From: Polaribacter sp. MED152
GTDB taxonomy: Bacteria; Bacteroidota; Bacteroidia; Flavobacteriales; Flavobacteriaceae
Direction of reading: 5' to 3'
Assembly (NCBI RefSeq): GCF_000152945.2
Contig: NC_020830.1
Location: 2,428,501-2,492,500, forward strand
DNA: 64,000 bases
Shown: piece by piece, positions 42,180-48,107 of the stretch
How the letters are laid out: every line of letters starts with the position of its first letter
Numbering within the stretch: the stretch's first letter is position 1
Position numbers and translations under genes: made by a program
The notes under the pieces: model-generated
Told to the model about the DNA's origin: nothing
Database searches by the model: none
Seen by the model: only the letters and a program-made list of their open reading frames with translations

Positions 42180-44192
42180 ATGATTTCTAGAAGTACCATA
42201 GACCGAGTTTTTGAATCTGCAAGAGTAGAGGAGGTTATTGGTGAGTTTGTTCAGCTTAAAAAAGCAGGAAGTAATTTTAAGGGGTTAAGTCCTTTCACAG
42301 ATGAAAAATCGCCATCATTTATGGTATCTCCTGTAAAACAAATTTGGAAAGATTTTTCTACCGGAAAAGGGGGTAATGCTATTTCTTTCTTAATGGAACA
42401 TGAGCATTATTCGTACCCAGAAGCCATAAAGTGGTTGGCAAAAAAGTACAATATAGAAATAGAAGAAACTGAGCAAACAGATGAGCAAAAAGCGCAAATG
42501 AATGAGCGTGAAAGCATGTTTCTAGTTTCAAAATTTGCTAAAGATTATTTTCACGATTTAATGCTAAACACCAACCAAGGTAAAGCCATTGGTTTAAGTT
42601 ATTTTAAAGAACGTGGTTTTACAGATGAAACTATTAAAAAGTTTGATTTAGGCTATTGTTTAGATGAATGGGATAATTTTACAAATGCAGCTTTAGCCAA
42701 AGGTTACGATTTAAAATATTTAGCCTCTACAGGTTTAACAATTGTAAAAGAAAACAAACAATTCGATCGTTTTAAAGGCAGAGTAATGTTTCCTATACAT
42801 TCCATGTCTGGTAGAATTTTAGGTTTTGGAGGTAGAATTCTAAAAGCCGATAAAAAAGCCGCAAAATATCTTAATTCTCCTGAAAGTGATATTTATCATA
42901 AGAGTAAAATTCTTTACGGAATTTATCAGGCCAAAAAAGAAATTGCCAAACAAGACAATTGTTATTTGGTAGAGGGTTATACAGATGTAATTTCATTTAA
43001 TCAATCTAATGTAGAAAATGTAGTAGCCTCTTCAGGTACAGCATTAACTTCAGATCAAATTCGTTTGGTAAACAGGTTAACCAAAAATATTACAGTTCTT
43101 TTTGATGGTGATGCAGCAGGAATTAGAGCTTCAATTCGTGGTATAGATTTAATTTTAGAGCAAGGAATGAACGTTAAAGTGGTTCAATTTCCTGATGGTG
43201 AAGATCCTGATAGTTTTGCAAAAGCGCATACCAATTCTGAGCTTAAAGCTTATCTAGAGGATTCTGCTCAAGATTTCATCAACTTTAAAGTTTCACTTTT
43301 ATTAAAAGATTCTAATAATGATCCTGTAAAAAAGGCAGGTGTAATTAGAGATATTGTAACTAGTATTTCTAAAATTCCAGATTCTATTCAACGTGAAGTT
43401 TACATACAAGAATGTTCTAGAATTATGGAAATTTCTGAACGTGTTTTGTTTAGTGAATTGGCACAACTTTTAAAGAAAGAGGTTACTAATAAAGCTAGAA
43501 AAAGTAAACCTCAAGCATCTTCTAATCAAGATCCAAACCAACCACCTCCTGAGTATTTTGCAGAACTAGAACAGGCACAAATGGGTGTAGTAAAAGGTGG
43601 TGCAGTTGCTTTTAAAAAGGTAGATGAATTATCTATATTAGAAAGAGAAATTATTAGAATTTTGTTGCTTTACGGTAATGAGCAAGTAGATTTTATAGAA
43701 GAAATTATAAATGTTGATGAAGATGGTAAAGAAACCATAACAACTAGAAAATATCAAAACACGGTTTCTGCAGAAATATATGTGCATTTGCATGATGATG
43801 AAATCGAATTTTCGAATGATATTTTTCAAGAAATATATACAGAAGTTATTCATCAAATAAATCAATCAGACAAATTAAATATTGATAGTTTAGTCAATCA
43901 TCCAAATCCTTCTATTGCGAATACAGTAACTTCTATTTTAATGGATGAAGAAAAACATCAATTAAGTAATTGGGAAGGTCAAAACATTTTTGTAACCAAA
44001 GCAACAGAAGTGCTATACAAGGCTGTAAATGACTCTGTTTTTAACCTAAGAAGAATTTTAATTGGTAAAAAAATAGAGGAGTTAATGAATGAAGCTAAAG
44101 ACAATGAAGCTCCTATTTTAGATTTAGAGATGATTAAAGACTATACTTCACTAAAAATGAAGCTATTTAATAAACTTAATAGAGTAGTTTAA
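42180..44192 (+). CDS. dnaG: DNA primase without zinc-finger ligands
   Basis: A 670-aa replication primase making RNA primers. The N-terminal zinc-binding domain keeps its shape (GSNFKGLSPF, then SPSFMVSP), but all four metal ligands (CHCC in E. coli) are replaced by S37, T40, D58 and T61. The TOPRIM domain is intact (LVEGYTDVI and LFDGDAAG carry the catalytic Glu and Asp residues). A C-terminal DnaB-binding region (about residues 500-670) follows. I recall the same loss in other Flavobacteriia, so it is probably a lineage trait rather than damage. Single-gene unit. Confidence 0.95.
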   Translation: MISRSTIDRVFESARVEEVIGEFVQLKKAGSNFKGLSPFTDEKSPSFMVSPVKQIWKDFSTGKGGNAISFLMEHEHYSYPEAIKWLAKKYNIEIEETEQTDEQKAQMNERESMFLVSKFAKDYFHDLMLNTNQGKAIGLSYFKERGFTDETIKKFDLGYCLDEWDNFTNAALAKGYDLKYLASTGLTIVKENKQFDRFKGRVMFPIHSMSGRILGFGGRILKADKKAAKYLNSPESDIYHKSKILYGIYQAKKEIAKQDNCYLVEGYTDVISFNQSNVENVVASSGTALTSDQIRLVNRLTKNITVLFDGDAAGIRASIRGIDLILEQGMNVKVVQFPDGEDPDSFAKAHTNSELKAYLEDSAQDFINFKVSLLLKDSNNDPVKKAGVIRDIVTSISKIPDSIQREVYIQECSRIMEISERVLFSELAQLLKKEVTNKARKSKPQASSNQDPNQPPPEYFAELEQAQMGVVKGGAVAFKKVDELSILEREIIRILLLYGNEQVDFIEEIINVDEDGKETITTRKYQNTVSAEIYVHLHDDEIEFSNDIFQEIYTEVIHQINQSDKLNIDSLVNHPNPSIANTVTSILMDEEKHQLSNWEGQNIFVTKATEVLYKAVNDSVFNLRRILIGKKIEELMNEAKDNEAPILDLEMIKDYTSLKMKLFNKLNRVV

Positions 44193-44294
44193 TTAAGAGT
44201 TTACCATATTTCAATACCTTATTTTAAGATAACAATAAATTATAGATATTGATATTTATATTTCCATAAAACTTTCCAAAAAGGGTGTATATCC

Positions 44295-44326
44295 TTTGTT
44301 TCAACAAGGGTTTCGTAGTATTTTTG
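44295..44326 (+). promoter_or_regulatory. promoter of small gene 1
   Basis: TTTG (44295-44298), 20-bp spacer, TATTTTTG (44319-44326), 21 bp before the GTG start at 44348. Confidence 0.55.
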
Positions 44327-44347
44327 AACAGAAAAAGTTAAGCTACA

Positions 44348-44479
44348 GTGAAACGAATAGTAAGTATTATAAAGATTGCCCACTTGTTTTTAAAACTGCC
44401 TTTTGATATTTCAAATGGTTCAAAAAAGAAGTCATCAATTAGAATAAAAAAGTTAATGATATCTGCACGTTTGTTGTAA
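44348..44479 (+). CDS. 43-aa small protein 1 (paralogue pair)
   Basis: A short gene with GTG start, 43 codons. The product has a hydrophobic amphipathic first half (about residues 4-19) followed by PFDISNGSK and a lysine/arginine-rich helix ending in RLL. It is 25/43 identical by my alignment to small protein 2, 140 bp downstream, with mostly conservative changes (D/E, K/R, I/V) and no gaps, which shows selection on the protein. No family recognised. It could be a membrane-active peptide, a small regulator or a component of an envelope complex. A well-matched promoter lies just upstream. Confidence 0.7.
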   Translation: MKRIVSIIKIAHLFLKLPFDISNGSKKKSSIRIKKLMISARLL

Positions 44480-44506
44480 AAGCAAAATGTAAAGTGAATT
44501 GATTCA

Positions 44507-44531
44507 GAATGTTATCTTAATATTAACATTC
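44507..44531. promoter_or_regulatory. inverted repeat between the two small genes
   Basis: GAATGTTA (44507-44514) / TAACATTC (44524-44531), perfect eight-base arms, 9-bp spacer. No T-run. It could be an operator for small gene 2 or a weak 3' hairpin of gene 1. Confidence 0.4.
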
Positions 44532-44584
44532 ATTCTAAAACTTTAAATAAAACCTTCTAATAATACCTGTTAATTGTTTTTTTG

Positions 44585-44592
44585 TATATTTG
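44585..44592 (+). promoter_or_regulatory. -7 element of small gene 2
   Basis: TATATTTG, exact TAnnTTTG match, 25 bp before the ATG at 44618; no clear -33 box. Confidence 0.45.
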
Positions 44593-44617
44593 GCGCAAGA
44601 AAAAGAAATCGCACATT

Positions 44618-44749
44618 ATGAAAAGAGTATTACAAATTTTAAAAATTATTCAACTATTTATTTTCTTACCATTCGAAATTTCAAATGGTTCTAAGAGAAG
44701 AGCTTATATGAGAATTAAGAAAATGATGGTTGCAGCTAACCTTTTATAA
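44618..44749 (+). CDS. 43-aa small protein 2 (paralogue pair)
   Basis: A short ATG-started gene of 43 codons, the same length as small protein 1 and ungapped in alignment. Layout: MKR start, hydrophobic stretch (about residues 4-19, with LFIFLPF), the shared core PFEISNGSK, then a basic helix with RIKK and an AxLL end. Its own -7 element lies upstream and a strong bidirectional terminator downstream, shared with the convergent nadE gene. No function known. The 156 bp between the dnaG stop and gene 1, and the 140 bp between the two genes, hold only the promoters and the inverted repeat. Confidence 0.75.
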   Translation: MKRVLQILKIIQLFIFLPFEISNGSKRRAYMRIKKMMVAANLL

Positions 44750-44765
44750 AGGTAAGTAACAAAAT

Positions 44766-44802
44766 AAAAAACGGGCTATTAAAATTTACTAGCCCGTTTT
44801 TT
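44766..44802. terminator. bidirectional terminator, small gene 2 / nadE
   Basis: Stem AAAAACGGGCTA / TAGCCCGTTTTT, A and T flanks, loop of about 12. Confidence 0.85.
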
Positions 44803-44808
44803 ATGTTT

Positions 44809-45597
44809 TTATTTTAAATCTTCAGGAATTTCGCAAACAGGTATTGGTTGCATTTTATGCTGATTAATTCTATTTAGTCTTGTATAGATTTTGTAGACTT
44901 CTAGTTCTCTTCCAGAAAAGTCATTTTCACTTTTTCCTTCGTCTTGCATTTTCATAGCCCATTCTAATTCATCGTAAGAAGCTCCAATTTGGTCTTCATC
45001 AGTTCTACTATCGCCAAATAAACCATCTGTGGGTTGTGCAATTTGTATAGAATTTGGCACACCTAAATGTGCTGCTAATGCATAAACTTCAGATTTCATT
45101 AAATCTGCAATCGGACTTAAATCTACACCACCATCACCATATTTTGTGTAAAAACCTACACCAAAATCTTCAACTTTATTTCCTGTACCAGCAACTAAAG
45201 AACTGTTAATACCTGCTAAATAATACAAAGTTGTCATTCTAAGTCTTGCTCTTGTATTGGCTAAAGATAAATCTACTTTTGCTTGGTCATCTATTGTAGG
45301 TACAGCACTTTTAAAATCTTCAAAAGTAGAGGTTAAATCAACGCGAACTTCATTTACATTATCAAAACGTTCTTTTAATTGTGCAATATGTTCTTCTGCT
45401 CTAGAAACTTGACTAGCTGCTTGATGAATTGGCATTTCTACACATAAGGTTGGTAAGCCTGTTTTTGCACATAAAGTAGAAGTTAATGCAGAGTCTATAC
45501 CTCCAGATACACCAACAACAAAACCTTTTACACCAGCATTAGTTGCATAATCTTTTAACCAATTTATAATATATTCTGCTACTTTTTCGGTATTCAT
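44809..45597 (-). CDS. nadE: NH3-dependent NAD+ synthetase
   Basis: A 262-aa enzyme making NAD from deamido-NAD, ATP and ammonia. P-loop of the ATP pyrophosphatase type VSGGIDSALTS at about residues 28-38; NKVEDFGVGFYTKYGDGGVDLSPIADLMKSEVY is the NadE signature. It lacks the nitrilase domain, so it uses free ammonia. Divergent from gldB with 59 bp between, a gene neighbourhood I recall from gliding flavobacteria. Confidence 0.97.
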   Translation of the reverse strand: MNTEKVAEYIINWLKDYATNAGVKGFVVGVSGGIDSALTSTLCAKTGLPTLCVEMPIHQAASQVSRAEEHIAQLKERFDNVNEVRVDLTSTFEDFKSAVPTIDDQAKVDLSLANTRARLRMTTLYYLAGINSSLVAGTGNKVEDFGVGFYTKYGDGGVDLSPIADLMKSEVYALAAHLGVPNSIQIAQPTDGLFGDSRTDEDQIGASYDELEWAMKMQDEGKSENDFSGRELEVYKIYTRLNRINQHKMQPIPVCEIPEDLK

Positions 45598-46954: not shown

Positions 46955-48076
46955 TTATCCTTTTTTTATTTGGTTGATGATATTAATGTAATCTTCAGGA
47001 TTATTTACAAAATCAAGTTCGGAAACATCAATAACTAAGGTGTTCAAATTTTGTTGGGTGCTTATAAAGCTCTTATAACCATCGTGTATTTTTTGTAGGT
47101 AAGAAGCTTCTATATTTTGCTCATACTCTCTACCTCTTTTTTTGATATTTTCTAAAAGACGGGTGGTGTTCTGATATAGATATACATACAAATCAGGTTT
47201 AGTAATCTCTTTATACATTAAATCGAACATTTTCCGATACAATAAGTACTCATCGTTTTGCAAAGTAATTTGCGCAAATATTAATGATTTAAAGATGTAG
47301 TAATCTGAAACCACGAAGTTTTTAAACAGATCTAATTGGGCCAAATCATCTGATAATTGTTGATATCTATCTGCCAAAAAACTCATTTCTAAAGGAAATG
47401 CAAAGCGCTCTTTATCTTCATAAAATTTTGGTAGAAAAGGGTTGTCTGCAAAGCGTTCTAAAACAATTTTTGCGTTAAACTCATCAGACATCATTTTAGA
47501 AAGTGATGTTTTACCTGCACCAATGTTACCTTCAATTGCAATGTAATTGTACTTCTCAGAAATAGGTATTGGCCTATTCAAATTTTCGTTTACTACTGAG
47601 ATTTCAGAAGAATCATTACAATTTTGTAAACAAACTCCAATTTTTTGTTTGGCTATAGGATGTATAACAGAACCTGCAATTTCGGCTAATGGTACCAGAA
47701 CAAATTTACGTTCTAGCATCTTAGAATGAGGTACAATTAAGGTTTTAGAAAAGATGATTTCATCATCAAACAATAAAATATCAATATCTATATTTCTATC
47801 TGCATAACCATCAGAATCATTACGCTCTCTGCCCAATGTATTTTCTATATCTAGCAGAATTTGCATTAATTTTTCTGGTGGATGGTAAGTGCTAATTTTA
47901 AGGCAAATATTATAAAAATCATTACTATCAAAACCCCAAGATGAAGTATTGTAGATAGAAGAAATACTTAGAACAGCTCCTGCTTTATCAGCAATAAGTT
48001 CTATTGCTTTTTGTAGGTGATTTAATCTGTTTCCTTGGTTTGTACCTAAGGATAAATAGGTAATTCTTTGAATTTT
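46955..48076 (-). CDS. folK: fused HPPK (FolK) and deoxynucleoside kinase
   Basis: About 373 aa, counted from the ATG at 48076. The frame opens ten codons further upstream inside the pnp terminator, which makes that start unlikely. Residues 5-150 are 6-hydroxymethyl-dihydropterin pyrophosphokinase (SLGTNQGNR at the start and DRNIDIDILL as the metal-binding signature), a step of folate synthesis. Residues 175-373 are a deoxynucleoside kinase with P-loop EGNIGAGKTSL (the motif starts at about residue 182) and an ERF (DRS-like) motif. Fusion of these two activities is known in Bacteroidota. No interdomain frameshift. A strong hairpin separates it from pnp upstream on the same strand. Confidence 0.92.
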   Translation of the reverse strand, partial: KIQRITYLSLGTNQGNRLNHLQKAIELIADKAGAVLSISSIYNTSSWGFDSNDFYNICLKISTYHPPEKLMQILLDIENTLGRERNDSDGYADRNIDIDILLFDDEIIFSKTLIVPHSKMLERKFVLVPLAEIAGSVIHPIAKQKIGVCLQNCNDSSEISVVNENLNRPIPISEKYNYIAIEGNIGAGKTSLSKMMSDEFNAKIVLERFADNPFLPKFYEDKERFAFPLEMSFLADRYQQLSDDLAQLDLFKNFVVSDYYIFKSLIFAQITLQNDEYLLYRKMFDLMYKEITKPDLYVYLYQNTTRLLENIKKRGREYEQNIEASYLQKIHDGYKSFISTQQNLNTLVIDVSELDFVNNPEDYINIINQIKKG

Positions 48077-48107
48077 CATAAGAATCACAAAGAAACAAAA
48101 AAGCATA

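Follow-up and report, generated by a model that had tools for sequence, protein, structure and literature searches.

Between dnaG and nadE of Polaribacter sp. MED152, the window analysed here (a stretch of 64,000 nucleotides of contig NC_020830.1) contains two short open reading frames in tandem, which raise the question of whether they encode proteins and, if so, what such small proteins may do for the cell.

Two paralogous 43-codon genes

The gene p43A, the first (A) copy, begins with GTG and occupies positions 44348..44479 of the forward strand, including the stop codon; the gene p43B, the B copy, begins with ATG and occupies positions 44618..44749 of the same strand, also including the stop codon. 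The mechanical list of open reading frames begins p43B upstream, at a TTG codon; the homologues begin at the ATG of position 44618. The upstream neighbour on the forward strand (42180..44192), which is taken here to be dnaG, going by its sequence and by the original prediction, adjoins p43 in 101 loci, and the convergent downstream neighbour nadE (44809..45597, reverse strand) is present in the same 101 loci. In a single BLASTP comparison, with GTG read as methionine, the two products were identical at 25 and positive at 37 of 43 positions, with no gaps (E 8e-19), and the coordinates, the lengths of exactly 43 codons and the ungapped count of identities given by the original prediction were right. 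Its remark that the genes are too short for routine annotation holds in part, although several sources carry members of the family as hypothetical proteins. Elsewhere in the window, the open reading frame at 46955-48106 looks, by eye, as if a folate-pathway pyrophosphokinase had been fused to a deoxynucleoside kinase.

Both p43A and p43B are genuine protein-coding genes. Compared with the copies of the sister species (G447), p43A shows 16 synonymous and two replacement changes and p43B eight synonymous changes and one replacement, dN/dS being about 0.02 for each; between p43A and p43B, synonymous sites are saturated and pN is 0.26. Across the family, the median dN/dS is 0.19, and 99.3% of the values are below 1 (1870 pairs with pS <0.65, which are not independent of one another). 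Selection at the protein level, which had been proposed for the two paralogues, is supported both by these ratios, near 0.02 and not near 1 for each copy, and by homologues between dnaG and nadE in other genomes; purifying selection among the homologues marks the 43-residue peptides as a protein family. The length of exactly 43 residues is kept in 111 of the 118 intact copies from the 101 loci. Among the copies of this length, P18 is invariant (111/111) and K34 nearly so (110/111), and the C-terminal residues N41, L42 and L43 are kept in 95, 96 and 98, respectively, of the 102 distinct 43-residue sequences.

All 102 distinct sequences have a net charge of +6 to +12 and, in the region of residues 10-19, a stretch that is uncharged to hydrophobic. 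The AlphaFold2 model contains two helices, at residues 2-21 and 26-39 (mean pLDDT 81.4, pTM 0.49), split at the conserved P18/G24 region. The helical hydrophobic moment of these sequences is near that of shuffled ones (mean z of 0.64 over residues 2-18 and of -0.12 over residues 26-43). The description of a hydrophobic amphipathic half with a basic tail stands as to the hydrophobic first and the basic second half, but not as to amphipathicity, which is not above the shuffled level. The hydrophobic run and the model helix would suit membrane association, but the moment is at the shuffled level and both ends carry basic residues. Membrane-spanning segments follow the positive-inside rule, and the basic character of both ends makes a simple membrane span unlikely. 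The peptide may lie on the cytoplasmic face of the membrane.

No match above noise was found in Pfam and NCBIfam for 26 members of the family, and Foldseek gave no structure match in PDB. Three matches of the PDB sequence search (E 0.49-0.55) were taken as chance. The NCBIfam model NF040918 (LPFR motif small protein), which resembles the family in its very small size and its LPF motif, was matched by one of the 26 members at E 0.18, far below the 40-bit cut-off, and was rejected; it gave no match for nine members scanned singly and none in the organism's own genome. No paper on the family, and no ribosome profiling or mass spectrometry of its peptides, was found among those searched, including the available parts of PMC9723704 and PMC11683478. 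By these searches the family is new, having no family model, structure or paper, while its kind, small stress-linked proteins, is known; the distribution of its copies among promoter types is unusual.

Distribution, inheritance and loss

Relatives were found, with a profile of 26 members, in 139 of the 166 genomes of the genus, and in 112 of 128 among the good genomes. In all 101 loci with both flanks, which were chosen because they hold a p43 match and come from 100 genomes (L018 and L028 belong to one genome), p43 lies on the strand of dnaG between dnaG and nadE; in one further locus, L112, dnaG is absent from the fetched stretch. One copy is present in 86 loci, two copies in 13 and three copies in two, which gives 118 intact copies, excluding the duplicate loci L023, L024, L025 and L069 and the copies with stops. 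Two extra copies lie off the main locus (L026 and L027), one of them 1.4 kb beyond gldC.

Named records with close members, from 29 loci, belong to Polaribacter or, at family level, to Flavobacteriaceae; among 120 of the 170 proteins listed, most of those with a name are assigned to Polaribacter, one to Tenacibaculum xiamenense and one to Lutibacter sp. Hel_I_33_5. A wider search of the bacterial family gave matches at E 0.01 in 14 of 397 genomes, three of them of the same genus and the others weak; of the roughly 394 genomes from elsewhere than the genus, 11 match at E 0.01 or better, and as no more than 18 candidates per genome were scored, remote relatives may be missed there. The best of these matches (E 3.1e-5, one genome) is an open reading frame of 38 residues with a LPFVISHGEKQR-like core, located away from dnaG and nadE (L058:1501-1605), and is either a distant relative or a chance match.

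Of 23 entries of the genus without a p43 match, 17 yielded nadE and 15 both flanks. No intact p43 was present in these 15 two-flank loci, and in 10 of the 15 readable loci the gap of 0-79 nt leaves no room for the gene. Locus L232 contains a decayed copy, and at least one lineage has lost p43 by decay. Given this decay and the gaps without room, p43 is dispensable though conserved. A search of phages, plasmids and viral contigs with p43 gave no match above noise; the gene is inherited vertically at one locus.

In other Flavobacteriaceae, a gene of a LuxR-type response regulator was found between dnaG and nadE, on the strand of nadE, in 25 of 29 loci (L131-L159), and the Polaribacter group is without such a regulator between these genes (44193-44808 in the window). 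Descent of p43 from the regulator was rejected: 28 open reading frames from relatives, 25 of them regulator-like, gave one weak match (E 0.06) when compared with the Polaribacter gaps. The nearest regulator matches in six genomes of the genus are 28-35% identical, as against 93% between two other genera, and accordingly a relocated regulator is absent from these six genomes or strongly changed in them.

Promoter classes of the copies

For the analysis of upstream regions, the first copies of five arrays were named A by hand from sequence (n=5), the last array copies near nadE were named C (n=12, with L124 placed by hand), and the other array members were named B (n=16); among the single copies, 38 overlap the end of nadE by about 9 nt and 47 do not. 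In the tree of the 43-residue proteins, drawn without support values, the five A copies group together and the C copies do not make up a single clade.

Housekeeping-type -7 boxes are present on the forward strand before both genes, namely TATTTTTG for p43A (44319-44326) and TATATTTG for p43B (44585-44592). Both match TAnnTTTG exactly, as had been predicted, but an exact match in itself is at the chance level, the motif being no commoner in the window than expected (117 seen, 118.1 expected), and the weight of the two boxes comes solely from relatives, in which a box is retained at a similar distance. In 5/5 A copies, TAnnTTTG precedes the start codon by 25-35 nt; B copies have TAnnTTTG in 9/16, TAnnTTGY in 4/16 and neither in 3/16; TAnnTTGY is present in 33/47 of the singles not overlapping nadE. 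The proposal of an own promoter for each gene agrees with the promoter-like box that each copy retains in relatives. Many of these relatives carry the SM5-like TATATTGC at the distance of the TATATTTG box of p43B. In the available parts of PMC9723704, TAnnTTGY is the SM5 promoter motif mapped in Flavobacterium psychrophilum; it matches the TAnnTTGY of many relatives' B copies, whereas the boxes of the window are TAnnTTTG.

Upstream of p43A, a palindrome-like element, AAAGGGTGTATATCCTTT, was recognised by eye at 44280..44297 of the forward strand, and the sister species carries AAAAGGGTATAAAACCCTTG in its place, also by eye; the strict palindrome motif matches 0/5 A copies. The palindrome NNGTR-TTTW-YACNN precedes many of the B and single copies, being found in 32 of 118 upstream regions at a shuffle rate of <=0.0008, the pattern having been drawn from the same sequences in which it was counted. 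It often lies 33 nt before the -7 box, and its arms co-vary between species (L005-L010, L049, L053, L057, L115, L116). Genome-wide, a simpler palindrome, RGGTRTTTTYCCYT, matched 34 times in 12 genomes and its reversed control 21 times; nine of the 34 matches are p43 itself, and a wider palindrome regulon is not shown by these counts.

The predicted inverted repeat between the genes, with arms of eight bases (44507..44531), exists as read from the sequence, but by eye the sister species (L036) does not retain it, and it is therefore probably incidental. After p43B, the stretch 44747-44812, which has a folding energy of -20.8 kcal/mol (z -4.96 relative to shuffled sequences), contains a hairpin with T/A-rich flanks (44766..44802), likely a terminator shared by p43B and nadE; a simple terminator scan gives no terminator, the loop of the hairpin being longer than the scan allows.

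The C copies have a promoter of another type. An ECF-like pattern, GTGAC-N14/17-GTC at -47 to -52, was found in 9/12 of them (shuffle rate 0.0000, the pattern having been drawn from the sequences in which it was counted) and in 4/38 nadE-overlapping singles, and is absent from the A copies (0/5), the B copies (0/16) and the other singles (0/47). The ECF-type promoter that would mark an ECF regulon precedes nine of the 12 C copies of relatives and neither A nor B of the window, where the C copy is lost. The SM6 promoter of F. psychrophilum, the CGT box of which is read as ECF-type in the available parts of PMC9723704, loosely resembles that of the C copies, but belongs to another genus, and the genes listed there are T9SS and other genes, not those found here.

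In a genome-wide scan with a first, stricter ECF pattern, p43C was the sole match, in three of eight genomes. The pattern GTGACN{16,17}GTCTWA gave 28 matches in six genomes against nine for the reversed control; five of the 28 precede p43C and are there by construction, C copies having been the source of the pattern. Further matches precede six proteins of a single type (DUF3078 in the one scanned), four M48-type protease lipoproteins (M48 peptidase in the one scanned, best NCBIfam model BepA, below the cut-off), two large exported proteins and, once each, genes for an ECF sigma factor, a mechanosensitive channel, a DUF4197 protein and a lipocalin-like lipoprotein; the remaining ones comprise three without a near open reading frame, three inside long open reading frames and one over the start of lspA. 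The ECF-like promoters of envelope genes were seen in five genomes carrying C. In L268:1542-3027, the ECF sigma gene, a small open reading frame and a second mechanosensitive channel gene stand in a row with an ECF-like promoter ahead, divergent from a primary-sigma-like gene. The window's own genome has three matches, two in open reading frames and one over the start of lspA, and none before regulon genes (0/3); having neither the C copy nor this signal, its A and B copies are linked to stress through the family only. The promoter of the C copies in relatives points, short of proof, to envelope functions, a link that holds well for C but extends to A and B only indirectly.

Probable function of the peptides

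The reading preferred here, to which about an even chance is given, is that the p43 products are small cationic two-helix peptides, probably associated with the membrane and serving envelope homeostasis, with the copies split among promoter classes. The two open reading frames of the window would be functional A and B members of a Polaribacter/Tenacibaculum family of 43-residue peptides, the gene of which, located between dnaG and nadE, would have been duplicated in tandem to up to three copies, the protein being kept while the promoters diverged to a housekeeping type (A), a housekeeping or SM5-like type (B) and an ECF-sigma-like type (C). With a bend at the invariant proline, the hydrophobic N-terminal helix would dock on the cytoplasmic membrane from the inside, and the C-terminal helix, which is basic, would bind an anionic lipid or a membrane partner, by which the peptide may adjust envelope homeostasis under stress; A and B presumably do the same job as C. 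A further reading, advanced tentatively and somewhat less probable, is a sigma-partitioned array in which one membrane peptide, encoded by tandem copies under housekeeping, SM5-like and ECF promoters, would supply the same effector for different envelope conditions, having arisen where other Flavobacteriaceae keep the LuxR-type response regulator.

Tight conservation of sequence and length, including the last three residues, would also suit a specific contact, and the C copy and an ECF sigma gene have a promoter in common; p43 could accordingly be a small regulatory peptide tuning one protein (a sensor, a protease, a transporter or a sigma/anti-sigma factor), as small feedback proteins do. No such partner was found, the profile searches with 26 members and the Foldseek search described above offered no candidate, and this reading is given about one chance in four by judgement, that is, rather unlikely. 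The least credible of the alternatives, a leader peptide or a part of a regulatory non-coding RNA, draws on the short length, the own promoter and the downstream hairpin, and is already contradicted by the strong excess of synonymous changes; moreover, no gene of the same strand follows, nadE being convergent.

Size, charge and tandem copies are shared by p43 with type I toxins and leaderless bacteriocins. A type I toxin, silenced by the antisense RNA of a toxin-antitoxin pair and often encoded in tandem, would also fit the decay of some copies. However, the only recurrent reversed -7-like match (35/111, codon position +118) is explained by common A-N-L codons, the copies have no similar 5' regions in common, and the seven Rfam matches are all far under the gathering score; the consensus scan and Rfam thus gave no conserved antisense promoter or RNA, a search that an unusual promoter could escape. 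Vertical descent at one locus, with no phage or plasmid match, likewise makes a toxin improbable. Slightly less probable still is the secretion of p43 as an antimicrobial peptide, for instance a leaderless bacteriocin, pairs of which, of about 43 residues, exist and would resemble these basic tandem paralogues, as there is no transporter or immunity gene between dnaG and nadE and the nearly genus-wide presence at one locus is unlike the patchy spread expected.

Membrane-associated peptides acting at the envelope, as preferred here, have counterparts in MgrB, Prli42 and SpoVM, which are shorter than 50 residues, combine a hydrophobic helix with a basic part, and are each encoded by one gene with a stress-related or developmental promoter. 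To our knowledge, p43 has no sequence relation to them, and the likeness is one of manner of working only; p43 differs in being encoded by tandem paralogues with different promoter classes, and its membrane location is predicted.

That a tightly conserved, nearly genus-wide family has no model shows how many small proteins of marine Bacteroidota still await description. Its tandem copies with differing promoter types offer a ready system for asking why one tiny protein has several regulators, and candidate partners suggested by the C copies are an ECF sigma factor, an M48 protease and a mechanosensitive channel.
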